Positions 8,308-57,609 of a stretch of 64,000 nt of DNA are shown piece by piece. This DNA comes from Streptacidiphilus sp. ASG 303 (GTDB lineage Bacteria; Actinomycetota; Actinomycetes; Streptomycetales; Streptomycetaceae): contig NZ_JAJLRA010000002.1 in NCBI RefSeq assembly GCF_020991365.1, positions 62,001-126,000 of the forward strand, written 5' to 3'. Every line of letters starts with the position of its first letter. Positions within the stretch are counted from its first letter, which is position 1. A program made the position numbers and the translations under genes. The notes beneath the pieces were generated by a model that saw nothing but the letters and a program-made list of their open reading frames with translations, was not told the origin of the DNA and did no database searches.

Positions 8308-9333
8308 TCAGGCCGCGGCCGGACGCTCCAGCGGGGCGGTGCTGCCCCGGCGGACCAGCTCCGGCGGCGCCGCCTGGAGGTCCCGGACCTCCTCGCCCGC
8401 GACCAGGTCGCACAGCTGCCGGGCGGCGTGCGCGCCGTAGGCGGCGATGTCGCGGCGCAGCGCGGTGAGTCCGGGCCGGACCGCCCCGCACAGGGGCGAG
8501 TCGTCCCAGGCCAGCAGGGAGACGTCGGCCGGCACCCGGAAGCCGTGCTGCTGGGCGGCGCTGAGGCCGGAGACCGCCATCAGGTCGTTGTCGTACAGGA
8601 CCGCGGTGTGGCGGTCGGGCCCCTCCAGCAGGGCGAGGGTGGCGGCGGCCCCGCCCTCGCCGGTGTAGTCGGCCTCGACCGTGGTGGCGCGCAGGCCCAG
8701 CTCGGCGGTGACGGCGTCGAAGGCGGCGCTGCGCTGGCGGGTGTGGAGCAGGTCGGCGGGTCCGCTGACCCGGGCGACCGAGCGGTGCCCCAGGCCCGCC
8801 AGGTGCTCGACGGCCAGCCGGACGCCGTCCGCCTCGTCGTTCCACACCGCGGGCAGGCTGCCGGAGGCCACCGGCGAGCCGATCACCACGGCGGGCAGCT
8901 GCAGCTCCTCCAGCGCGGCGATCCGGGGGTCTCCGACGTGGACGTCGACGAGGAAGACCCCGTCGACGCGGCGGCTGGCCCACCAGTCGCGGTGCACGGC
9001 GACCTGGGCGCGGACGTCCTCGGCGAGGGTGAACAGCAGGGCCACGCCGTCGCGGGACAGCTCGGCCTGGATGCCGGAGATCAGCTGCATGAAGAACGGT
9101 TCGACGCCGAGCGCGGGCGCGGGCCGGTCGATGACGAGGCCGAAGGCGCCGGCCCGGCCGTCGGACAGGGCGCGGGCGGCGCTGTTGGGCTGCCAGCCCA
9201 GCTCCTCGGCGATGGCCAGGACGCGGCGGCGGGTCGCCTCCGACACGCCGGGCTTGCCGTTGAGGGCGAACGAGACGGCGCCCTTGGTCAGCCCGGCCCG
9301 CCGCGCGATGTCCGCCATCGTCGGACGCTTCAA
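8308..9333 (-). CDS. LacI family transcriptional regulator (paralogue 1)
   Basis: A 341-residue regulator with an N-terminal HTH (TMADIARRAGLTKGAVSFAL, hinge ELGWQPNSAARALSDG) and a periplasmic-binding-like sugar sensor. The start is TTG at 9333: the homologous gene at 16383 begins with the same KRPTMADIARRAG sequence, and GGAGGG lies about 11 nt upstream. The open frame extends 30 codons further but with no family similarity. It is highly similar to the second LacI along its whole length, so the two are paralogues bracketing the ABC importer. It lies downstream of, and in the same direction as, the importer operon but behind a strong hairpin, so it probably has its own promoter. Confidence 0.92.
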   Translation of the reverse strand: MKRPTMADIARRAGLTKGAVSFALNGKPGVSEATRRRVLAIAEELGWQPNSAARALSDGRAGAFGLVIDRPAPALGVEPFFMQLISGIQAELSRDGVALLFTLAEDVRAQVAVHRDWWASRRVDGVFLVDVHVGDPRIAALEELQLPAVVIGSPVASGSLPAVWNDEADGVRLAVEHLAGLGHRSVARVSGPADLLHTRQRSAAFDAVTAELGLRATTVEADYTGEGGAAATLALLEGPDRHTAVLYDNDLMAVSGLSAAQQHGFRVPADVSLLAWDDSPLCGAVRPGLTALRRDIAAYGAHAARQLCDLVAGEEVRDLQAAPPELVRRGSTAPLERPAAA

Positions 9334-45627: not shown

Positions 45628-46842
45628 ATGCAGGACATCGCCGGACAGCTGCACGCCTGGCACACCGCCGGACGGCCCTTCGCCGTGGCCACCGTCACCG
45701 CCGTCTCCGGCAGCGCGCCGCGCGAGCCGGGCGCGGCGCTCGCCGTCGACGAGGACGGCGAGGCGGTCGGCAGCGTCTCCGGCGGCTGCGTCGAGGGCGA
45801 GGTGTACGAGCTGTGCCGGGAGGTGCTGCGCACCGGGCGGCCCGTGGTGCGGCACTTCGGATACGGCGACGAGGACGCCTTCGCGGCCGGCCTGACCTGC
45901 GGCGGGTCCGTGGACGTGCTGGTGCAGCGGGTGCGGCCCGGGGCGGACGCGGGCCTCGACGCGGCGCTGGCCGCCGTCGCCGAGGGGCTGCCCGTCGCCC
46001 TCGTGCGGGTGGTGGCGGGCCCGCCGGAACTGCTGGGCGCCGCCCTCGCCGTCACCGCCGACGGCAGCCGCGGCTCGCTGGGCGGCGGGCCGCTGGAGGC
46101 CGCGGCGGCGGCCGGCGCGCGCGCGATGCTCGCGGCCGGGCGGACCGGCCGGGTCGTCCTGGACCGGGAGGGGCGGCCCTGCGGCGAGGAGGCGGCGGAC
46201 GGCGTCGTGCTGCTCGTCGAGTCCTACGCCGCGCCGCCGCGGATGCTCGTCTTCGGCGCCATCGACTTCGCGGCGGCCGTCGCCCGCATCGGCGTCTTCC
46301 TCGGCTACCGGGTGACGGTCTGCGACGCCCGCGCGGTCTTCGCCACCGCCCGGCGCTTCCCCGACGCCGACGAGGTCGTCGTGGACTGGCCGCACCGCTA
46401 CCTGGAGCGGGAGGCCGCCGCCGGGGCGCTGGACGGGCGGACGGTGGTGTGCGTCCTCACCCACGACGAGAAGTTCGACGTGCCGCTGCTGACGGCGGCG
46501 CTGCGGCTGCCCGTCGCCTACGTCGGCGCCATGGGATCGCGCCGCACCCACCGGGACCGCCTGGCGCGGCTGCGGGCCGCCGGGCTCACCGATGCCGAAC
46601 TGGCCCGGCTCCGCTCCCCCATCGGCCTCGACCTGGGCGGCCGCACCCCGGAGGAGACGGCGGTGGCCGTCGCCGCCGAGATCGTCGCCCACCGCCGCGG
46701 CGGCACCTGCCTGCCCCTCACCCTCGGCGAGGGGCCGGTCCACGGCGGTCCGGCGCACGGGGGTCCGGAGCACGACAGCCCGGAGCACGGCGGCCTCCCG
46801 GGGCTGCCGTCCCCGCCGGAGGCTGCATCCGCCTCTCCGTGA
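45628..46842 (+). CDS. xdhC: XdhC/CoxI family molybdenum cofactor maturation protein
   Basis: A 404-residue chaperone that sulfurates and inserts molybdenum cofactor into xanthine dehydrogenase. XdhC_CoxI domain about 5-75 (TVTAVSGSAPREPGAALAV, GSVSGGCVEG) and a Rossmann domain about 200-350 (MLVFGAIDFAAAVARIG, VCVLTHDEKFD, AYVGAMGSRRTH). GAAGGAG precedes the ATG. The tail from about residue 368 is odd: His/Gly/Pro repeats, then residues whose codons overlap an integrase-derived fragment. The stop codon itself appears to lie in that foreign sequence. The enzyme core is intact. Confidence 0.9.
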   Translation: MQDIAGQLHAWHTAGRPFAVATVTAVSGSAPREPGAALAVDEDGEAVGSVSGGCVEGEVYELCREVLRTGRPVVRHFGYGDEDAFAAGLTCGGSVDVLVQRVRPGADAGLDAALAAVAEGLPVALVRVVAGPPELLGAALAVTADGSRGSLGGGPLEAAAAAGARAMLAAGRTGRVVLDREGRPCGEEAADGVVLLVESYAAPPRMLVFGAIDFAAAVARIGVFLGYRVTVCDARAVFATARRFPDADEVVVDWPHRYLEREAAAGALDGRTVVCVLTHDEKFDVPLLTAALRLPVAYVGAMGSRRTHRDRLARLRAAGLTDAELARLRSPIGLDLGGRTPEETAVAVAAEIVAHRRGGTCLPLTLGEGPVHGGPAHGGPEHDSPEHGGLPGLPSPPEAASASP

Positions 46843-47054
46843 TCCGGCACATGGCAGCCGCCCTCCACCTGGGGCAAGGCACGGCACCGGCCCTGATCGG
46901 GCGACCCCTAGGCCACGCCCACATCGGCGTCACCGCCACTGTCTACGCCCACGTCAGGCTCCGCCTCCAGCGCCAAGCCATCGACACCCTCGGCGACGCC
47001 CTTCGAGACCCCGAGAGCGCTGACGACCTGCCAAGTGCAGAACCCGTCCGCTGA
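46830..47054 (+). pseudogene. C-terminal fragment of a tyrosine recombinase (integrase)
   Basis: Seventy-four codons with the end of a phage-type integrase: an IRHMAAAL block (the R-H of the catalytic set), LGHAHIGVTATVYAHV with the nucleophilic Tyr, then the usual LQRQAIDTLGDALRDP tail. The N-terminal two-thirds, including the first catalytic Arg, is missing and there is no start, so it is a remnant. It begins inside the last codons of xdhC in another frame. After its stop comes GTTGCCGTCAA, a motif that recurs near 48190-48212. Confidence 0.85.
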
Positions 47055-47255
47055 CGTTGCCGTCAAGACGGCCAACGGCCCCACCAAGATTTCCGCTCGA
47101 TGGGGCCATTGACTATTAATTTTCAAGATTTGCGGGTCAATCAGAATGACAATAGAGCTTCCACCTTAAGGCGGAAGACAAATCTATAGATCATCCGCCG
47201 GCGCCTCTTTATCGATTTGATAAACCGCCAAACTGCTGAAACCCTTCGATACAGT
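47055..47255. other. AT-rich spacer after the integrase remnant
   Basis: About 200 bp clearly less GC-rich than anything else in the window (runs such as attaatttt and ctctttatcg). No gene or tRNA is seen. It marks horizontally acquired DNA and is downstream of the Imm26-like gene on the minus strand. Confidence 0.6.
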
Positions 47256-47738
47256 CTACGCTCTTTCACCAATTCGAATTTCATCGAACACGGGAAGCCA
47301 GGACTCGACCCCCTGAAAGGCTTGCGCCGCCTTCTCCACTAGCATCGGAGAGAATGACTTCTGCTTCTTGAGTCGGGCAGCCTCATCCGGAGTTAGTCGC
47401 CTTCCGATGCTTCCATCAATATGCTGCGCGAAGAAGTCACCGCCAGGCTCGACCTGGGTCTTGCATACAGGGATAGAGAGTTCAGTCGGCGGCGTCCAGT
47501 TCCCCGCCACTCTCCACGTCCCATCCTTGAGGCGCAAATCCATGGTCTCAACGAGGAAGACCGGCCGAGAGATCGACAGGCGTCCCAGGTCGACAGCCTC
47601 AACCGACTCCGCCAACTCCGAATAGATGGCGACCAGGACATTTCCGCCGCGCATCTTCAAGACGACCCGCCCTAGGGAAAACTCTCCCTCCGCGACAGGA
47701 ATGAGAAAAAGATCGCTTTGTCGATATCTCACGGGCAT
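47256..47738 (-). CDS. Imm26-type immunity protein
   Basis: A 160-residue protein. The start MPVRYRQSDLFLIPVAEGEF followed by SLGRVVLKMRGGNVLVAIY has the 'GD-x-F-x-I-P-L ... G-x-V' beginning of the Imm26 family, whose members neutralise polymorphic-toxin nucleases. Its start overlaps the end of the toxin fragment by 10 bp, the normal toxin-then-immunity order. Codon use is much less GC-biased than the neighbours, which indicates recent acquisition. Assignment is by eye from the N-terminal motif. Confidence 0.65.
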   Translation of the reverse strand: MPVRYRQSDLFLIPVAEGEFSLGRVVLKMRGGNVLVAIYSELAESVEAVDLGRLSISRPVFLVETMDLRLKDGTWRVAGNWTPPTELSIPVCKTQVEPGGDFFAQHIDGSIGRRLTPDEAARLKKQKSFSPMLVEKAAQAFQGVESWLPVFDEIRIGERA

Positions 47739-48112
47739 GACACGGCACCTCCGGCAGCCCGGTAGCGGGCTTCACCCATCTGAACACGCTTGTTCGTCAG
47801 AACACTACCTGGAACTGATGCCTTCCCGCCGCCAGCACGCATCCAACTCTCCTTGAGGACATCCAGATCGCGACCAGGTGCCGCCCGGCCAAGGACCTCG
47901 AAAGTGAAGGAGGAATTGGGATAGTCCCTGGCGTGTTCGGCCTGCCGCGCCAAATAGCGGTCCCAGCTCTTCGCCCGCCCAACATACTCCTCTCCAGTGA
48001 CGAGATCCGTACGGAGATAGATAACACCATCGGGAGCCGGGGGCGTGGAATTGTGGACCAGAACCGGAGTATTCCCAGCCAGCACATAGTACGTGTGCTG
48101 GGCGACCTCTCT
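47729..48112 (-). pseudogene. Orphaned polymorphic-toxin C-terminus, GIY-YIG-like nuclease
   Basis: The sequence enters through HTYYVLAGNTPVLVHN, the linker that ends pre-toxin/HINT regions of RHS-type toxins, followed by a 100-residue toxin tip. GVIYLRTDLVTGEEYVGRAK, RYLARQAEH, LDVLKES and LTNKRVQM align with the GIY, YIG, Arg, Glu and Asn landmarks of GIY-YIG nucleases. In frame, a TAG lies 9 codons before the linker's Val-Leu-Ala-Gly (48113-48115), and no delivery domain precedes it. It is therefore a displaced tip or pseudogene. A GTG at 48085 could still start a 118-residue peptide. Confidence 0.7.
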
Positions 48113-48115
48113 CTA

Positions 48116-48303
48116 CCTGCGTTTTTGCAGGTCAATGGCAGTTCGGTGGTCCGCTGACGTCCGTGGAAGTGCGGTGGCGTGGGGTCCGGTTGCCGTCAGC
48201 GTTGCCGTCAAAGGTATAGACCTATTGCCGCTCGGATCAGGCGGCGGCGATCGCGAGCATCTCCTCTTCGAGCGGCGCCCAGACCCCGATCCGCTACCAG
48301 AGC
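48116..48303. other. Junction region with GTTGCCGTCA repeats
   Basis: About 190 bp between the toxin remnant and the toxin-antitoxin operator. It contains GTTGCCGTCA twice in quick succession (about 48190-48212); the longer form with AA also follows the integrase fragment at 47055. GC content returns to the genome norm here. No gene is supported. Confidence 0.45.
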
Positions 48304-48333
48304 CATGACATCCGAGCTACTGTGGATGTCATG
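48304..48333. promoter_or_regulatory. Toxin-antitoxin operator: 10-bp inverted repeat over the start codon
   Basis: CATGACATCC (48304-48313), a 10-bp spacer, and its exact reverse complement GGATGTCATG (48324-48333). The spacer includes TACTGT (48318-48323), a -10-like box placed 7 nt before the ATG at 48331, so the transcript is probably leaderless and the operator covers both promoter and start codon. This is what autoregulation by the antitoxin or the complex would need. Confidence 0.85.
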
Positions 48334-48810
48334 ACGACGGCCTACGAGGACGTGCCCTTCAGCGAGCTGCTTCACCAGCCCGCGGCCACTACCCGGCGCC
48401 TGGACGCAGTCCGCGCACTGCGCCTGCGCCGCCGCGACGCGGGCGACCTCGCGCTCATCCGTGCCGACCAGCTGGAGCAGGACTCCACCGTGGTCGACTT
48501 CACCGCCCGCCTACTCGCCGGACTGGTCCGCACCGAGAACACCGCCGCACTGCGCCAGGCCCTGCCAGATGCTCTGCCCTGGTCGGTCTTCCTCCCCGAG
48601 GACGACGTCGAAGCGATGCTCGGCGAACTGGTGGACACCGCCCGCGGGGCCGCCGCGCTGGAGAACCTGGCCCCCATTGCGCTGCTGCTCGCCCAGTGGC
48701 GGCACAGCGCCGAGATCTACGCCGACCCGGCCCTGCACGCCATACTCACCCGCGAGCCCGACGGCGACCTCGGCACTGTCCCCGTACCCGAAGACGAGAC
48801 CGCCGAGTGA
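48331..48810 (+). CDS. Antitoxin of a type II toxin-antitoxin pair (Phd-like)
   Basis: A 159-residue, acidic, mostly helical protein. The N-terminus (residues 5-50, VPFSELLHQPAATTRRLDAV then RRRDAGDLALIRADQLEQD) resembles the Phd/YefM DNA-binding fold that starts 'V-x-x-x-x-L...'. The long C-terminal part (LLAGLVRTENTAALRQALPD onward) is atypical and may be the toxin-neutralising region. The ATG at 48331 is used rather than the GTG at 48322 because of the leaderless -10 spacing. Its stop overlaps the toxin GTG by 4 bp. Confidence 0.72.
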   Translation: MTTAYEDVPFSELLHQPAATTRRLDAVRALRLRRRDAGDLALIRADQLEQDSTVVDFTARLLAGLVRTENTAALRQALPDALPWSVFLPEDDVEAMLGELVDTARGAAALENLAPIALLLAQWRHSAEIYADPALHAILTREPDGDLGTVPVPEDETAE

Positions 48811-49160
48811 GCCCCAAGCGCGGTGACCGCGCGGCCCCGCCCCCGGTCGGCGAAGAGTTCGACCTGCGCTTCGCCAACACGGAGGCGGCCAACGGCTGGG
48901 ACCACCTCTCCCGCCACGCAGCAGGCAACCTCCGCCGCGCCTTCGACAAGATCCGATCCGCCCCGCGCGCCACAGACGACCCCGAGCGCCACCACCGCCT
49001 CAAGGGCAAGATCGGCTCCACAGTCTGGAAGGGGCAGACGCTGGAGCGCTGGCAGTACGAGGTCACCGGCGGCGGCCGCATCTGGTACCTGGTCGACGAC
49101 ACCAACCGCACCGCCTGGATCACCTACGCAGGCACCGGACACCCCAAAGCCACCGACTGA
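48807..49160 (+). CDS. RelE/ParE-type toxin
   Basis: A 117-residue basic protein: HHRLKGKIGSTVWKGQTLER, WQYEVTGGGRIWYLVDDTN and the C-terminal WITYAGTGHPKATD follow the RelE/YoeB pattern (helical N-terminal hairpin, then a beta-sheet with conserved Arg/Lys, ending in GHPK). It should be an mRNA interferase acting at the ribosome. The GTG start (48807) overlaps the antitoxin stop, so the toxin is made only when the antitoxin is translated. Confidence 0.8.
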   Translation: MSPKRGDRAAPPPVGEEFDLRFANTEAANGWDHLSRHAAGNLRRAFDKIRSAPRATDDPERHHRLKGKIGSTVWKGQTLERWQYEVTGGGRIWYLVDDTNRTAWITYAGTGHPKATD

Positions 49161-49664
49161 TCGCCCTTCACCTCCTGTCAACCTGCCGCGTCCACGATCC
49201 GCGCGCGTGTTGACGCGATCTTGGGCTGGCATCCTGCCAGATTCGGACCCCGCTCCGGGCAGGTGGGCGGTCCGGGGGCTCTCGGCTGCTCGACGGTCGG
49301 CCGCCGGGGCGGCCTTCGGCCGGCGCGTGCTTCGGCCAGTCTGGCAGCGCGGGCGCTGAGGCGGGGAGGGGTCCGGTCGACGGCGAGTGGCCGGGAGCTT
49401 CGCTCCCCTGCCGGAGGAGACGCCAGCCACCCGCCTGACGGTGAGCCCGGCGGACGCACGTTGAGGGTCAGCCCCCTGGGTCGGCCCTCTTCCCGTTGGA
49501 TACCCCATTGGGATATCCAACGGGATAACTTGCTCCGCGACGCGGCAAGGTTCTGGTCAGCCCAATCACCGGCCATTTCCTATCGGCTCACTGGGCGGCT
49601 GCGCCCGCCCGATCCGCCTCACCGGGCACCGCACCCGTCTGGACACCGCCACCGGCCAGATCCT
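49161..49664. other. Hairpin-rich intergenic DNA, decayed
   Basis: About 500 bp with no supported gene. It contains a small GGGAGC-TTC-GCTCCC hairpin (49393-49407), several GGCCG-type stems (49295-49340), and the stronger inverted repeat at 49492-49524. Open frames on both strands have no recognisable domains. It probably contains the lost 5' part of the pseudogene that follows. Confidence 0.5.
49492..49524. repeat. Inverted repeat CCCGTTGGATA-N11-TATCCAACGGG
   Basis: Perfect 11-bp arms (49492-49502 and 49514-49524) around an 11-nt centre, in an otherwise featureless stretch. Possible operator, recombinase site or mobile-element end. Confidence 0.7.
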
Positions 49665-51714
49665 CGACACCCGACCTCAAGGGCGCCGTCGTGCACGACG
49701 CCCGTCTGCGCGTCCTGCAGACCTACGCCTGGTCGTGCACCAAGCGCACGGTCAACGTCTACCTGACCGGCCCGGTGAGCGACAAGACGACGTGGAAGAA
49801 CGCGCCGGGCATGACCAGCGGCAACCTGCTCGACCACTAGAGCTTCGCGCACGGCTACAAGTCGGCCTCCTGCCCGGACGACTACGAGACCTTCGATGTG
49901 AAGGCCGCTGTACAGAAAGCCGTCAAGGGCGGATGGTCGACCATGACGCTCGGCCTGCGGGCCGCGGACGAAGGCTCGGCCTACAGCTGGAAGAAGTTCC
50001 AGGCCGACGGCGGCAACGACCCGTACGTCGACCTGGTGTACAACCGCCCGCCCGGTGCACCGCAGAAGCTCGACCTGGACCCCGACCTCTCCTGTGACAC
50101 AACCTCCCCCTACGTGAACGTGGACGCCTCCTCCATCACCTTCTGGGCGAGCGCCGGCGACGTGGACGGCAACCTGGCCTCCGTCCGCTTCGAGCTGTGG
50201 CCCACCGGCAACTACGGCAACATGCTGGGCTCCAAGGGCACGGTCTCCGTCGGCAGCCAGACCGGCTCCGCGCGCGTCCACACCGACCCCATCTCCACCA
50301 GCGGGCTCGTCAATGGCACCACCTACTCGTGGCGCGCCCGGTCCGTGGACAAGTTCGGCAGCACCTCCTCCTACACGCCGGGCGGCACGACCCCCTGCCG
50401 CTTCGTCTTCGACAACAGCCGGCCGTCCGCGCCCACCGTGACCTCGACGGTCTTCCCCGACGCCGACGCCCTGGACAACGGCTTCGGCAGCGACGGTGAG
50501 GACTCCACGTGGAGCACCCTCCCGTTCGGGACCGGCGGCTCCTTCACGTTCAAGGCATCCCAGACCGACGTGGTGCGGTACGAGTACGGCTTCAACTCAG
50601 CTTCCTACACCGGCTTCGCCTCCCGGACCAACGGCGCCGCCACCTCCACCACCACCACCGTCTCCAACCTGAAGCCGCCACTGGCGGGGCCGAACGTGCT
50701 GTACGTCCGCGCGGTCGACGCCGCAGGGAACGTCTCGGACCCGCGCAAGTACTTCTTCTACGTCACCCCGCGCGACAAGGCCGACTCCCCCGGCGACTTC
50801 GCCGGAGACGGGCTGCCAGACCTGATGGTCGTCGACGGGGACGGCAACCTCCGGATGTACTCCACCATCGCCACGGCCTCCGACCTCACCAAGGGGACGG
50901 GCAGCCTGGGATGGTCCATGGCCGGCGCCTACCAGGACAACCCGGACAAGGATCCGAGCGGCGACGACCGACCGTCCTATGTCGCTGCCACGTCGGGATA
51001 CTGGAAGAACACACTCATCGCCCACCTCGGCGACGTCTACGGAGGCGACGGCCTGACCTCGTCGCCATCAAGGACGGCCGGCTGTGGGTGTACCCGGGTG
51101 ACGGCTACGGCTCCGTCAACACAGGCAAGCGACAGGAGATCCTGATCCCGTCCAACGCGCCGGCATTGAGCACCATCACCCAGATCGTCTCCGCCGGGGA
51201 CGCCACCGGTGACGGCAAGCCCGACTTCTTCATGACTGTGGGCGACACCCTGTGGGCCTTCCTCGGCTACAACGGTGCCACGGTCTCCGAGGCCCGGATG
51301 GTCGCCAGCTCCGCCTGGACCGACCGCGACCTGGTCGCCGTCCAGGACATCGGCGGCGACGGCGTGGCCGACATCATCTACCGCACCGGGACCGGCGGGC
51401 GGCTTCTCCTCCGTACTGGGATCAAGGATCCGGCCACCGGAGGTGTCGACCTCGTCTCCTTGGCATCAGCGGCGGCCTCCTCCGGAGGCGCGGACGTCGA
51501 GTACGTCTCCTCGGGCTGGAGCACCACGACCGTCCGGCTCGTCTTCGGAACGCCGGACGTCAACGGCGACGGGATACCGGACATCTGGGCGGTCAGGACC
51601 GATGGCACCGTCCGCTTCTACCCCGGCGGCCGGACCGCTCTGACCAGCGCCGGCACACAGATCGTCAGCAACAGCGACGGGAAGGGGTGGAAGTACAAGA
51701 TGGCGATCGGATGA
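49665..51714 (+). pseudogene. Decayed DNRLRE / FG-GAP repeat surface protein
   Basis: The reading begins mid-domain with a DNRLRE-type beta-structure (GAVVHDARLRVLQTYAWSC). A TAG at 49838-49840 interrupts it between LLDH and SFAHGYKSASCPDDYETFDV. Fibronectin-like regions follow (LDPDLSCDTTSPYVNVDASS, YSWRARSVDKFGS), then FG-GAP/VCBS propeller repeats with Ca-binding motifs (GDGLPDLMVVDGDGN, TGDGKPDFFMTVGD, VNGDGIPDIWAVRTDGT). Near 51050 the frame shifts by one base deletion. No signal peptide remains. Intact relatives are secreted and often sit beside RHS-type toxins. Confidence 0.82.
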
Positions 51715-51954: not shown

Positions 51955-52326
51955 TCATCCCCCGCTCCACACGGCGAGCTCCCCTCCGGGCATGCAGATC
52001 ACCCGTCGCCCGCCCGGTCCGGCGGTCTCCCACGCCTCGTAGTCGGGGTCCGGACGGACGGTCAGCCGTGTGCCGCTCGCGAACCCGACCACGAGGTCCC
52101 CCGCGTCCCCCGCCCCGGCCTCGGTGATCACGTCGCGGGCCAGGCCGACGAGGTGGGCGGCCGTGGCGCCCGGGGATTCCGGGTCGAAAGCAGCAGGTTC
52201 CCCGACCGGAGGATGGAGGACCGCCTCGGTCTCGATGATCATTTCCCAGTTCCTACTGGTCAGGATCCTGACGGCGTAGTCGAAGCAGACGCGGACGACC
52301 GTCTGGCCCTGAAGGTCCAGGTTCAT
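51955..52326 (-). CDS. DUF6188-like small protein
   Basis: A 123-residue protein: MNLDLQGQTVVRVCFDYAVR start, a middle TEAVLHPPVGEPAAFDPESP and a C-terminal LTVRPDPDYEAWETAGPGGR followed by RVICMPGGELAVW. The YEAW...PGGELAVW ending fits actinobacterial DUF6188 proteins as I remember them. These are of unknown function and often near toxin/immunity genes. The ATG at 52326 gives a full-length family product. It is divergent from the gene at 52538. Confidence 0.65.
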   Translation of the reverse strand: MNLDLQGQTVVRVCFDYAVRILTSRNWEMIIETEAVLHPPVGEPAAFDPESPGATAAHLVGLARDVITEAGAGDAGDLVVGFASGTRLTVRPDPDYEAWETAGPGGRRVICMPGGELAVWSGG

Positions 52327-53361: not shown

Positions 53362-56343
53362 TCAGTGCAGGCGGCGGAGGGTGTCGCGGAGGCGGCGGGC
53401 GTCGCGGAGGCGGTGCTCGTAGGTGGCGCCCGCGAAGAGGAGCAGGAGCCCGGCGGCGGCGAGGGGCGCCCAGCGGGGCAGCAGGCCGAGGGCCTGGGCG
53501 ACGGTGGGGGCCAGTTCGTGGAGGGCGTCGGCGGCCAGGACCGCTCCGCCGGCCAGCAGCGGGGCGCGCAGGCGGTGGCGGGCGCCGAGGAGGGTCACGG
53601 CGAGGGCGGCGAGCCCGAGGAGGAGCGGACGGAGCCAGTGGGCGTCGGTCCACGCGGCGGCCAGGCTCGGGAGCAGGGTGACGGTCAGTCCGGGGCCGTA
53701 GGCGGACCAGGAGCCGGTCTCCGGGGCGCGGCGCCGCCGCAGGTACCCGAGGACCAGGGCGGCGGCGGAGACGGGGAGGGTGTACGCCTCGGGGTCGTCC
53801 ACGCCGGCCAGGGCCAGCCGCACCCAGGAGGAGGCGGTCAGCAGGGCGGCGGCGGCGAGGAGCGCGGGGCGGCGGCGGTCGGCGCGCAGGGCGGTGCCCA
53901 GGGCGGCGGCGCCGCAGATGGCGAGGGCGGCGCTGAGGGCGTCCGGGTGGAGCACGGTCGCGGGCAGCGCGGCGGCGGCGACGGCGTAGCCGGCCAGTTC
54001 GACGGCGGCGGCGCGGGCGCCGGACGGGGCGGCGGAGGTGCGGGGGGTGGCGGGGGCGTGCGGGGCGGTGGGGTCGTCCGCCGGGCCCGGGCTGCGCAGG
54101 GCGGCGGCTGCGGGGACCGTGGCGACGGCCACCCCGAGCGCGGCGAACGCCGCCACGTGCGGCGGCAGGCCGACGGCCGTACCGGCCCGCGCCGCCTCCC
54201 CGCCGAGGACGGCCACGGCGGCCGCGGCGGCACCGGCCGCGGTGCGGCCGACCGGGAGCGCAGCGAGGACGGCGGCCAGGACCGCGGTGGCGCCCCACAC
54301 GGTGAGGGTCGCGGCCTGGTCGGGCAGCGACCAGGCCAGGGCGAGGGCCGCGGGGGCGGTCAGGGCGCAGAGCTGCGCGGCGCGGTCGGCGCCGGGGCGG
54401 CGCACCAGGTGGACGGCGGCGACGAGGGCCGGGAGCCAGGCGGTCGCCAGGGCGGCGGCGTAGGGCAGTCCGGCGGCGACCGGGGCGAGGGCGACGGCCG
54501 GGACGGCCGCCAGGACGGCGGCGCAGCGGAGCACGCGGCGGGCGTCGGCGGGAGCGGGGGCAGCAGGGGCCGGGGCGCGGTCGGCGGGATCGGCGGGGTC
54601 GGCGGGGTCGGCGGGATCGGCGGGGTCGGCGGGGTCGGCGGGGTCGGCGGGGTCGGCGGGGTCGGCGGGGTCGGCCGAGGTGCTGTCGGCCTGCGCAGGA
54701 GCGGCCGGCGCGGGGGCGGTGCCGCTGGAGCGGCCGAGGAGGGCTGCGGCGGCGGCCAGGACCGCGGCGGTCAGGGCGGCCGTGACGGGGACCGCCGGAG
54801 CGGTGCGCCAGCCCTCCGGGAAGGGGCGGGTGTCCGCGTCCCCGTGGTGCAGGACGTGCCGCAGGGGCTCGGCGAGCGCCTCCAGCAGGGCGGGGAGGAC
54901 CTGGAGGACGGCCAGGGCCAGGACCAGGGCGCCGGCGGCGGTGAGGCCGGTCCACAGGGGGAGGGAGTGTGCGGACGCTCCGGCGGGGGCGGCGGGAGTG
55001 GCGGCCGAGGTCCCGGCGGCGGGGGCCGGGGCGCCGGGGGTGTCCGCGGCTCCGAGGCGGGCGACGGACGGTCCGGCCGGGGGCATGCCGTCCCGCGCAG
55101 CCCCGCCCCGGACCGACCCGCCCCGGACCGTCCCGCCGCGGTCCAAGCCGTCCCCGCCCGGGTCGGCGGCCGGGAGGCCGGTGCGGCGGGCGAGGGCGGC
55201 GGTGGCGAGGAGCGCGGCGGGCAGCGCGTACGCGAGGACGGACCAGGTGTCCGGGAGGGCGAGGCGCGGTGCGGCGGCGGCCGCGGCGGTGAGGGCCAGG
55301 CCCGCGAGGACGGCGGCGCCGAGGCGGGCCCCGGACGGGAGGCCGGGCCGGCGGGAGGCGGCGGCCCCGAGCAGGACGAGCAGCGCGAGCGGGACGCAGG
55401 CGCGCAGGGCCGGTCCGTACGCGGGGGCGGTGAGGGCGGCGGTCGCGGCGAGACCGCCGCCGAGGACGGCCTGGACGGACCCGGCGGCGAGGGCGAGGCC
55501 CGCGAGGACGGCGGCGGGGCGGGCTCCGGTGCGCCGGGCGAGCGGGGCCGGGAGGGCGGTCGCGGCGCCGAGGTCGAGGAGGGCGGTGCCCGCCAGAGCC
55601 GCGGCCCATCCGGCGGGTCCGGCGCCGGCCGCGGACGCCGCGAGCGGGGCGGTGGTCTGGAGGAGCAGCAGGGCGGCGGGGGGCAGGACGGCGGACCGGG
55701 TCCGGTGGGCGTACGCGGCCGCCCCGAGGGCGGTGAGGGCGGTGGCCGCGGCCCAGTAGGCGGCGGCGTCGGTCCGGTGGAGTCCGGCGAGGCCGGCGGC
55801 GCGGGCGGCGTACCAGTCGAGCAGGACCAGGGCGAGGCCGACGGCGGAGGCCGTCTCGGCGGTGGCGGTGAGGCCGCGCCGGCGCAGCGGGAGGGGCGCG
55901 GCCAGGGCGGCGGCGGTGAGCGCGGCGAGGACGGCGGCGCGGCCGCCGATGCCGAGGCTGCCCCAGTTGACGACGGTGAAGGCGAGTCCGGCGAGGGTGA
56001 CCAGGAGGCCGCCGAGGACCAGGAGCACGGTCTGGACGGACGGCGCCGGGGCGTCCCGGCGGGGCCCGGGGGGCACCGGCGGCGGGCCCCAGGCCGGGAG
56101 GGCCGCGGGCTCCGGCGGCGGACCGGCCGTCGCGCGGCGGGCCCGGAGGCCGGAGACCAGGGCGGTACGCCGGTGGAGCAGGGCCGCCCGCCGGGCGTCG
56201 AGGTCGGCGAGGGCGGTGTCGACGTGCCGCAGTTCGGCGGCGTCGGGCCCGGTGAGCGGCAGGCCGCAGCGGGGACAGGCGGGAGCGGCGGCCGGGTGGA
56301 GGGGCGAGCCGCAGTCGGGGCAGCGGAGCGGGCGGGCGTCCAT
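53362..56343 (-). CDS. Large polytopic membrane protein, SCO7613 C-terminal-domain type
   Basis: A 993-residue protein. It starts with a zinc ribbon (LRCPDCGSPL ... CPRCGLPLTG, residues 6-30), then a helical linker (ELRHVDTALADLDARRAALL), and then roughly 25 TM segments rich in Ala/Leu/Gly arranged in pairs. This is the layout of the Streptomyces 'SCO7613 C-terminal domain-containing membrane protein' family, of unknown function. Between TM blocks is a run of about ten Ala-Asp-Pro units encoded by a 9-bp repeat (54580-54675). The ATG at 56343 starts directly before the ribbon. Confidence 0.82.
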   Translation of the reverse strand: MDARPLRCPDCGSPLHPAAAPACPRCGLPLTGPDAAELRHVDTALADLDARRAALLHRRTALVSGLRARRATAGPPPEPAALPAWGPPPVPPGPRRDAPAPSVQTVLLVLGGLLVTLAGLAFTVVNWGSLGIGGRAAVLAALTAAALAAPLPLRRRGLTATAETASAVGLALVLLDWYAARAAGLAGLHRTDAAAYWAAATALTALGAAAYAHRTRSAVLPPAALLLLQTTAPLAASAAGAGPAGWAAALAGTALLDLGAATALPAPLARRTGARPAAVLAGLALAAGSVQAVLGGGLAATAALTAPAYGPALRACVPLALLVLLGAAASRRPGLPSGARLGAAVLAGLALTAAAAAAPRLALPDTWSVLAYALPAALLATAALARRTGLPAADPGGDGLDRGGTVRGGSVRGGAARDGMPPAGPSVARLGAADTPGAPAPAAGTSAATPAAPAGASAHSLPLWTGLTAAGALVLALAVLQVLPALLEALAEPLRHVLHHGDADTRPFPEGWRTAPAVPVTAALTAAVLAAAAALLGRSSGTAPAPAAPAQADSTSADPADPADPADPADPADPADPADPADPADPADRAPAPAAPAPADARRVLRCAAVLAAVPAVALAPVAAGLPYAAALATAWLPALVAAVHLVRRPGADRAAQLCALTAPAALALAWSLPDQAATLTVWGATAVLAAVLAALPVGRTAAGAAAAAVAVLGGEAARAGTAVGLPPHVAAFAALGVAVATVPAAAALRSPGPADDPTAPHAPATPRTSAAPSGARAAAVELAGYAVAAAALPATVLHPDALSAALAICGAAALGTALRADRRRPALLAAAALLTASSWVRLALAGVDDPEAYTLPVSAAALVLGYLRRRRAPETGSWSAYGPGLTVTLLPSLAAAWTDAHWLRPLLLGLAALAVTLLGARHRLRAPLLAGGAVLAADALHELAPTVAQALGLLPRWAPLAAAGLLLLFAGATYEHRLRDARRLRDTLRRLH

Positions 56344-56853
56344 GGCATGGGAGTGTGGGGCGGCGGGCGCGCCGGCGCATGAGTACGGGTACTCAGACGG
56401 CGGCGGGGTGCGCGGAGCCGGTGTCCGCGGCGGGTGGGGGCGGCACCGGTGACGGTTCGTCGGACGGGTGGCGGCGGGGTGGCGCGGCGCGGCAGGCCGG
56501 GGACGGGCAGGCGGAGGCGCACGGTCGCCGGTCGGTCCGGCCGGGGACGGGGCACGCGTGGCGGGCGGCGGGGTGGCGCGGCGCGGCAGGCCGGGGACGG
56601 GCAGGCGAAGGCGCACGGTCGCCGGTCGGTCCGGCCGGGGACGGGGCACGCGTGGCGGACGGCGGGGTGGCGCGGCGCGGCAGGCCGGGGACGGGCAGGC
56701 GAAGGCGCACGGTCGCCGGTCGGTCCGGCCGGGGACGGGGCACGCGTGGCGGGCGGCGGGGTGGCGCGGCGCGGCAGGCCGGGGACGGGCAGGCGGACGG
56801 AGGAACTCCGGGGGGCGGCAGGACGGGCGGACGGAGCCGCTGGTGGCGTTCCG
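56344..56853. other. Intergenic region occupied mainly by a 94-bp tandem repeat
   Basis: 510 bp between the membrane-protein start and the IclR stop. The right two-thirds is the 94-bp repeat (see that entry). The left 125 bp should contain the membrane-protein promoter. The repeat is read through in several frames by open frames with repeated Arg/Gly sequence, which are artefacts of its GC content. Confidence 0.6.
56471..56798. repeat. 94-bp tandem repeat, three full copies and a partial
   Basis: Units begin at 56471, 56565, 56659 and 56753 with gcggcggggtggcgcggcgc and run through gcaggccggggacgggcagg and ggccggggacggggcacgcg. Copies differ at only a few positions (for example gcgga/gcgaa and a G/A at the unit start). 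The fourth is cut off after about 45 bp. The period is not a multiple of three, which argues against a coding repeat. It has no spacer/repeat alternation, so it is not CRISPR. Confidence 0.92.
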
Positions 56854-57609
56854 TCAGAGGGCGAGCGAGAGCAGGACCGTCGCGGTCCGGTCGGCGAGGA
56901 CGTCGGCGGCGCGGCGGAGCCGGTACGCCTGGTCCAGGGGCAGGGAGACGGCGAGGCAGGCGGCGGTGGAGCCGGCGGTGAGGGGGACGGCGGCGCAGAC
57001 CGTGCCCAGGGCGTACTCCTGGAGGTCGAGCACCGGCATGGTGGCGGGCTGCCGGTCGAGGCGCTGGAGCAGCTGCCCGGGGTCGGTGGTGGTGCGGGAG
57101 GTGAGCCGGACCGGGGGGTGGCGGTCGAGGTGGTCGCGGCGGGCCCGGTCGTCGAGCTGGGCGAGCAGGCACTTGCCGAGGGCGGTGGCGTGCGCGGCGG
57201 CGCGGGGGTCGACCCAGGCGGGGCCGCCCGGGGCCCACGGCGCGGTGGCGGACGCCTCGACGACGGCCTCCCCGTCGCGGTAGGCGCCGAGGTGGACGGC
57301 GGCACCCAGTTCGTCGCGGAGGCCGCGCAGCGCGGTGTCCAGCCGGTCCCGGAGGGTGTCGCGGCGGGTGCGGCCGGCGAGCCGGACCAGGGTGCCGCCG
57401 AGGACGTACGCGTCGCGGTCGAGGCGCTGCAGGTAGCCGTGGTCCTCCAGTTCGGCGGCGGTGCGGTCGACGGCGGCGACGGGCAGGCCGAGTTCGCGGG
57501 CGAGCGCGTCGGTGGTGACGCCGTCGCGGTGGCGGTCGACCGCCTCCAGCAGGCGCAGGGCCCGGTGGAGGGAGCCGCGCCGGACGGGCCGGACGTCGTG
57601 AAGGGTCAC
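56854..57609 (-). CDS. IclR family regulator (AllR-like)
   Basis: A 251-residue regulator: N-terminal winged helix (GSLHRALRLLEAVDRHRDGV, LARELGLPVAAVDRTAAELE) and an IclR effector domain (HATALGKCLLAQLDD, EYALGTVCAAVPLT). GTG at 57609 has GGGGGA upstream; the longer frame adds unrelated Pro/Gly sequence. It follows allantoinase and allantoicase on the same strand, 224 bp downstream, and so is the obvious candidate for the allantoin/purine repressor, as AllR is in other bacteria. Confidence 0.88.
   Translation of the reverse strand: MTLHDVRPVRRGSLHRALRLLEAVDRHRDGVTTDALARELGLPVAAVDRTAAELEDHGYLQRLDRDAYVLGGTLVRLAGRTRRDTLRDRLDTALRGLRDELGAAVHLGAYRDGEAVVEASATAPWAPGGPAWVDPRAAAHATALGKCLLAQLDDRARRDHLDRHPPVRLTSRTTTDPGQLLQRLDRQPATMPVLDLQEYALGTVCAAVPLTAGSTAACLAVSLPLDQAYRLRRAADVLADRTATVLLSLAL

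Follow-up and report, generated by a model that had tools for sequence, protein, structure and literature searches.

A probable decayed polymorphic-toxin locus beside xdhC of Streptacidiphilus sp. ASG 303 and the integrative elements that may have switched its toxin tips

In the genome of Streptacidiphilus sp. ASG 303 the gene xdhC runs into the 3' remnant of a tyrosine integrase gene, and the roughly 5 kb behind it hold further pieces of mobile elements and toxin genes. The DNA analysed here, referred to as the window, is a 64,000-nucleotide stretch of contig NZ_JAJLRA010000002.1 (GCF_020991365.1, positions 62,001 to 126,000). We read the stretch next to xdhC, with a probability of roughly 0.78, as the scar left at a polymorphic-toxin locus by small integrative elements, relatives of the actinomycete integrative and conjugative elements (AICEs), which exchanged toxin tips by means of their integrase. 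The parts, their order, the shared core and the differing tips are observed. According to the mechanism that we propose, the integrase would recombine the core of an element with the core inside a toxin gene, exchanging the DNA at a 7-bp spacer. Each insertion would give the toxin a new tip and a new immunity gene and displace the old pair; the displaced tip would be silent, its immunity gene would be retained and useful, and excision would reverse the insertion. It is likely, moreover, that the elements of this family in the Streptomycetaceae form a dedicated and reversible weapon-switching system, in which the core is built into the last HINT codons of the toxin gene, every element delivers a new tip together with the matching antidote, and the displaced antidotes make up an ordered record.

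Elements inside the toxin genes of related genomes

At intact loci the element is inserted in a polymorphic toxin gene of the RHS/PT-HINT kind, where the gene encodes HTYYVLAGxTPVLVHN. Its tip-side end is fused in frame to the RHS/PT-HINT body at the last HINT codons, and on this integrase side a toxin tip is followed by a small gene; the opposite end has the same core, usually behind a stop codon, and then a different tip. Both an Rhs core and a PT-HINT domain are found in the toxin of locus L181. In this toxin piece PT-HINT matches residues 478-616 and the codons of the core start at residue 601, which places the exchange point at the end of the HINT domain and the start of the payload. The stretch coding for HTYYVLAGATPVLVHN is present three times at this locus, once in the toxin, once past the far end of the element and once more in a position still more distant, in copies of 50-54 bp that are 87-88% identical; the shared piece includes CACACGTACTATGTGCT. 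Matches were also found in 27 plasmid records. In all five plasmid loci that were opened, the integrase gene converges on a small gene (of the barstar family in one, hypothetical in four) followed by a very large gene whose annotation is HINT, RHS or lectin; some of the five also have genes for a replication initiator and FtsK behind the integrase.

Direct repeats resembling attL and attR mark both ends of the elements: 39 end pairs, or 36 after identical ends were merged, surround an integrase gene at distances of 2.8-13.6 kb. Scored per 5 bp over the 36 pairs, the identity of the two ends is 0.23-0.48 to the left of the core, 0.92-1.0 in the first 20 bp, 0.67-0.88 up to +50 bp and 0.25-0.39 thereafter; agreement thus begins at the first core base, lasts to about +50 bp, where HINT ends, and is confined to this span. 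Upstream of the core at the integrase and tip side, 28 of the 36 have an open frame of 723 amino acids (aa) or more, which belongs to the toxin body; of the remaining eight, six resemble stacked, displaced ends, with 0 or 5 open codons. The corresponding frame at the far end does not exceed 51 aa in 35 of 36. By construction all 36 elements have a tyrosine integrase (PF00589, expectation value (E) 8.7e-29 in L181). A helix-turn-helix (HTH) gene of the excisionase type lies next to it in 27 (HTH_17, E 1.1e-10 in L181), a RepSA-type initiator is found in 28 (PF20199, E 1.3e-144 in L181, where the NCBIfam RepSA model stayed below its cutoff at 485.6 against 700 bits), and an FtsK/SpoIIIE translocase was detected with five tblastn queries in 8 (PF01580, E 2.6e-14 in L181).

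Attachment sites that restore the end of the gene they interrupt are usual, and the paired ends might reflect no exchange of weapons at all, only the insertion of ordinary elements in the 3' part of a conserved gene, with a differing tip as a by-product. Such insertions have a precedent in a Streptomyces population, where 14 of 51 integrative-element sites lie in protein-coding genes according to the accessible part of that study (PMC9513070). We nevertheless regard this account as improbable, given that the restored end differs from the displaced one (the two tips are unrelated at E 1e-3 in 34 of 35 testable pairs) and that tip families recur in both positions: the 132 tips compared fall into 86 families, 14 of which have fused as well as displaced members (3 of 135 tips and 1 of 36 pairs were too short for comparison). 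Stacked generations are also seen, as in one genome (G156:C777, L269-L271) where five displaced cassettes and one fused tip follow in succession, with integrase genes or their remnants between several of them.

We searched 297 genomes sampled from the Streptomycetaceae, the family of the window. The core, with up to one mismatch, is present in 191 of them and the exact core with an arm repeat at the set spacing in 22; the reversed-pattern control found none for the former, and the control for the latter was likewise 0. When a class-wide sample of 246 genomes was searched for a match to the core pattern alone, 21 had it, 11 of the 22 from this family and 10 of the 224 from other families. Among 51 distinct integrase 3' ends, picked by integrase similarity alone, 40 have a core within 1.9 kb on the opposite strand and none has one on the same strand. 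Arm repeats occur near 33 of 45 displaced cores as against 2 of 77 fused cores (135 cores in all; 13 of unclear class were counted as neither, and the end of the stretch truncates 11 of the 77 fused ones). Loci with exact core and arm matches (L217-L244) repeatedly have a hairpin like ACCTGCGTTTTCGCAGGT in the element arm, between the core and the arm repeats, perhaps a binding site or a terminator.

Two strains of Streptomyces goshikiensis carry the same toxin locus on plasmids (a third record, which is a different locus, was left out). Over 17.7 kb, which take in most of the toxin gene, the DNA of the two is 94.0% identical, and over 11.8 kb past the locus 98.9%; their toxins are alike (78.1%) over residues 1-2202, up to the last residue of the VHN motif, and no further. 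The last 440 bp of shared toxin DNA, to 50 bp past the start of the core, are 82.0% identical, and homology returns in the 3' end of the integrase gene (74%). One strain has a full element, with FtsK, initiator, HTH and integrase genes; the other has an unannotated integrase remnant. This comparison bears on a further explanation, in which tips are swapped by ordinary homologous recombination between the conserved 3' end of HINT and that of the integrase gene, and the elements serve only as flanks. Both flanks of the tip cassettes are indeed conserved, homology in the S. goshikiensis pair resumes in the 3' end of the integrase gene, a further block ahead of HINT has diverged too, and a single recombination at the 3' tip is the general proposal for polymorphic toxins in what is accessible of PMC3482391. 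Left unexplained, however, are several features: elements made of integrase, excisionase and replication genes have direct repeats at both ends, each with a sharp left border, arm repeats lie at 109 or 121 bp, a stop codon precedes displaced tips, and generations are stacked. As the full account homologous recombination therefore seems rather unlikely to us; a contribution of it to tip exchange is possible.

The scar in the window and the end of xdhC

Read away from xdhC, the scar comprises the 3' end of an integrase gene, an Imm26-like gene, an orphan toxin tip, the core, arm repeats, a two-gene cargo, a RepSA fragment and a broken toxin-partner gene (Table 1). The integrase-based exchange of tips draws its support in the window from the fact that the core, the 109-bp arm spacing, the cargo, the RepSA fragment and the partner gene are as in the relatives. 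The core pattern matches once in the 64 kb, with up to 3 mismatches allowed and 0.00 matches expected. The cargo DNA is 80.7% identical to L251 over 48306-49160 and 76.1% identical to L250 over 48049-49160, the core of L250 included. In L250 and L251 the cargo occupies the same end of the element, which perhaps points to a role in element maintenance; our guess is that the two genes are a toxin-antitoxin pair. The partner remnant is 67.9% identical in DNA to L268 over 49674-51666, and at other loci the LamG/FG-GAP partner gene adjoins intact toxin genes.

Table 1. Features of xdhC and of the scar behind it, in window positions
Feature	Position	Strand	Remarks
xdhC	45628..46842	+	Intact frame of 404 aa; native homology ends near 46743-46750, judged by the tails of relatives
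15-nt tandem repeat	46738..46797	+	Four units, VHGGP/AHGGP/EHDSP/EHGGL, within the xdhC tail
3' remnant of a tyrosine integrase gene (older element)	46822..47054	+	Supplies the xdhC stop at 46840-46842
Arm repeat GTTGCCGTCA	47056..47065	+	Right behind the integrase stop; same place after the integrases of many relatives
Imm26-like immunity gene	47256..47738	-	Below the Pfam cutoff (19.6 against 23.3 bits)
Orphan (displaced) toxin tip	47729..48097	-	122 codons from core HTYYVLAGNTPVLVHN; only 5 open codons upstream
Attachment core CCAGCACA-CGTACTA-TGTGCTGG	48079..48101	-	Perfect 8-bp inverted arms, 7-bp spacer
Hairpin ACCTGCGTTTTTGCAGGT	48115..48132	.	Element arm beside the core; similar hairpins in other ends
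Two arm repeats GTTGCCGTCA	48189..48210	+	109 and 121 bp from the core
Two overlapping small genes, element cargo	48322..49160	+	First DUF6247-like (E 0.027, below cutoff), second unnamed
Conserved element-end DNA	49279..49563	+	Matches starting here in 26 loci, some overlapping
RepSA replication initiator gene fragment	49582..49668	+	Found by tblastn; 95.4% DNA identity to L283
LamG/FG-GAP partner gene remnant	49674..51714	+	5' truncated, frame broken near 51130; begins 5 bp after the RepSA fragment

The window may have had a history of two generations. The older integrase tail would belong with the cassette of the Imm26-like gene and the orphan tip, and the end of a younger element would have been inserted at the core of this cassette. 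Later deletions would have taken away the toxin body and whatever else the two elements contained, so that RepSA came to adjoin the partner gene and the 3' end of xdhC was joined to the older integrase tail, where the gene would have stopped since then. On this view xdhC carries the edge of an old array of mobile elements and toxin genes, the integrase tail beside it being one edge of a scar of about 5 kb.

The first-pass annotation of this DNA, made from the sequence alone, had placed the stop codon of xdhC inside a foreign fragment with a tyrosine-recombinase remnant in another frame, and on both counts we agree. The stop, a TGA, is in a frame different from that of the integrase, whose own frame stops at 47052-47054. 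The onset of the remnant has to be moved: many comparisons put the start of DNA similarity to the integrases of relatives at 46822, not at 46830, and its end at 47065-47066. The onset is sharp, the identity to six integrases, per 15 bp, being 0.13-0.40 before it and 0.60-0.80 in the first 15 bp after it. Taken as a whole, the remnant stays under the Pfam cutoff, with 11.5 against 27.1 bits (E 0.26). The 85-bp block that holds the xdhC stop (46822-46906) is nonetheless integrase-derived, since its identity, in register, to 12 integrases is 0.45-0.66 and 11 of the 12 exceed the 99.9th percentile of the null, 0.46 (null mean 0.29). The xdhC stop thus lies about 20 bp inside integrase-derived DNA. 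Matches to 46690-47080 occur in 225 of the 297 family genomes, some of them weak or to the xdhC part only. The rest of the integrase, which the first-pass annotation suggested looking for elsewhere, did not turn up as a close intact copy when the genome was searched with the 76-aa integrase tail, the other matches being 33-42% identical. An origin of the integrase from a phage found no support, window positions 46780-47120 having no match in the phage collection.

At 88 xdhC loci of relatives (some share a genome, one ends at a contig end without a stop and one has 111 bp downstream) no integrase similarity was found downstream of xdhC at E 1e-3, and none of the 88 carries the attachment core; one, L124, has a weak integrase match upstream of the gene. 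The alignment with relatives, proposed as a way to the junction, does not give its exact base. The first-pass annotation had seen here the precise footprint of an integration or deletion event. That integrase DNA adjoins xdhC would fit an integration at the 3' end of this gene, which is nonetheless highly improbable: the core is 1.2 kb away, in the orphan toxin tip, the 5' part of the integrase gene is absent at the junction, and neither core nor downstream integrase accompanies xdhC at any of the 88 loci. With the core in 0 of 88 xdhC loci, we reject the 3' end of xdhC as the attachment site. A later deletion or rearrangement at the edge of the old toxin and element array is the better reading of the junction. 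The word precise, in turn, does not hold, since the junction can be placed only within a range of positions.

The preceding His-Gly-Pro repeats had been taken for non-native as well. The first of the four repeat units, however, overlaps the native GPVH end of xdhC, and the GGPEH type of repeat is also present in another gene of the same genome (phosphatase-like, judged by motif), and on these grounds we reject a foreign origin; the repeat is probably a local expansion of the xdhC tail. XdhC proteins of relatives end in a short, variable tail after a GPIHHD- or TPIHHD-like motif. Pfam matches both XdhC_CoxI and XdhC_C in the window's xdhC, and the altered tail is outside the matched domains, because these are over by residue 352. 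For xdhC itself the matter is an ordinary one, an altered tail that is not conserved.

A number of points weigh against the exchange of tips by the integrase or against the history given above. Recombination, excision or a circular form was not seen in the sequence data, and a search of plasmid records for a free circular element met none shorter than 72 kb among 40 of the 47 records. Seven of the 36 elements show the integrase only and FtsK is rarely detected; many elements may be non-conjugative or decayed. Most of the paired loci were selected for carrying the end pattern, which biases the counts made on them. Of the 51 integrase ends, 11 lack a core within 1.9 kb, and the core is found in 10 of the 17 ends for which at least 1.9 kb are available. 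Two cores of the fused class have arm repeats, and one of these is a far end whose frame is open for 314 codons. Between the S. goshikiensis strains a stretch of about 430 bp of the toxin body, ahead of HINT, is without a DNA match, and so the exchange was not confined to the core; nor are the two a direct before-and-after pair, since neither tip of the strain with the full element matches the active tip of the element-poor strain at the DNA level. Within the window, neither a toxin body nor the younger integrase and its tip is left, and the two generations are a reconstruction. The remnant is a mosaic, with about 60% family identity in 46822-46906 and up to 92% in 46907-47065, and the junction between xdhC and the integrase can be placed only between about 46744 and 46822.

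With regard to the jump at 46906/46907, the less similar first block is the conserved catalytic part in the relatives. Two integrases may have contributed to the remnant, the block next to xdhC coming from another integrase, or decay may have been uneven.

Relation to known systems

The shufflon, in which Rci acts on the tips of PilV, also has a tyrosine recombinase at the boundary between the constant and the variable part of a coding sequence, as does the family found in the window; the shufflon works by inversion within one locus, whereas here inserted mobile elements would bring tips from outside. With the AICEs of the pSAM2 type the elements share the tyrosine integrase, the small HTH gene of the excisionase type, the RepSA initiator and, in some, FtsK/SpoIIIE. 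Their stacking at one site is a further likeness, to accretion as treated in the accessible parts of two AICE papers (PMC9513070, PMC3218068). The same parts of these papers have tRNA genes as the main targets, whereas here the site is inside a toxin coding sequence, the element brings a new 3' end for its target gene and FtsK was detected in only 8 of the 36 elements. The window itself has a single tRNA, at 9158. The supplementary site tables of these papers may list a site in a toxin gene.

The polymorphic toxin systems described in the accessible text of PMC3482391 have in common with our loci the RHS body, PT-HINT, a variable tip, an immunity gene behind it and strings of old immunity genes. 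Zhang et al. (2012) proposed that toxin and immunity gene are replaced together through a single recombination at the 3' tip; as far as that text goes, no enzyme is named for it, and XerC/D are suggested for polyimmunity loci (PMC3482391). Here, in contrast, a specific integrase, a core and an element are linked to the replacement of tips. Prophage cassettes of polymorphic toxins in Mycobacterium abscessus (PMC8092301) likewise place a toxin-immunity pair beside the attachment junction of an integrating element. These toxin genes, however, have their own N-terminal motif, and the completion of a resident toxin gene is not mentioned in the accessible part of that paper. In the type VI secretion system of Vibrio cholerae, to judge by the title of PMC5361080, arrays of immunity genes record displaced effectors, and the part of the source at hand does not mention an element-borne integrase. 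A description of integrase-linked exchange of toxin tips was not found in the open-access literature, a search that leaves preprints outside PMC and most subscription journals uncovered.

If the exchange is as proposed, a recombination machine would stand behind tip polymorphism, at least for this element family, where the work on polymorphic toxins considered here names none, and elements of a conjugative type would be tied to bacterial warfare. The integrase family, the 23-bp core, the arm repeats and the paired ends make the question of how tips change directly testable. Stacks of displaced cassettes could be read as the order of past weapons and the antidotes retained from them.

The orphan tip and neighbouring genes

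The tip left in the window is named by neither Pfam nor NCBIfam. Sequences of solved structures gave weak and unconvincing matches only (best E 0.0017, a ribosomal protein entry), and PADLOC gave weak UzuA matches (best E 0.005). Its AlphaFold model, made from the single sequence, has a mean predicted local distance difference test (pLDDT) score of 44.4, too poor for a structure search. The order of strands and helix and the motif IYLRTD..GEEYVG recall GIY-YIG nucleases, a likeness that we take only as a lead. A relative of this tip was found in one of the other 296 family genomes (G078, 76% over 66 aa).

Just to the right of the partner remnant lies a complete gene for a DUF6188 protein (51955-52326, minus strand; Pfam E 1.1e-34), which we guess to be a further immunity-type gene. 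On another contig of the same genome (G000:C132; L284, L029) a toxin frame is open over 2409 aa up to the core (at most 2 mismatches), and this second toxin locus also has a LamG/lectin-like partner gene and a decayed integrase tail.

Two genomes of the same genus have other genes after xdhC, up to a gene shared with the window at 56854, which by our reading of the sequence would be IclR-like. Read from sequence in the same way, the genes between are glucarate-dehydratase-like, a transporter and a large secreted protein, with an extra gene first in one genome. The glucarate-dehydratase-like gene found no match in the genome of strain ASG 303, in a search run without a positive control. A long open frame with low-complexity stretches occupies 53362-57300 on the minus strand, and a proline- and arginine-rich peptide recurs near 56400-57000.
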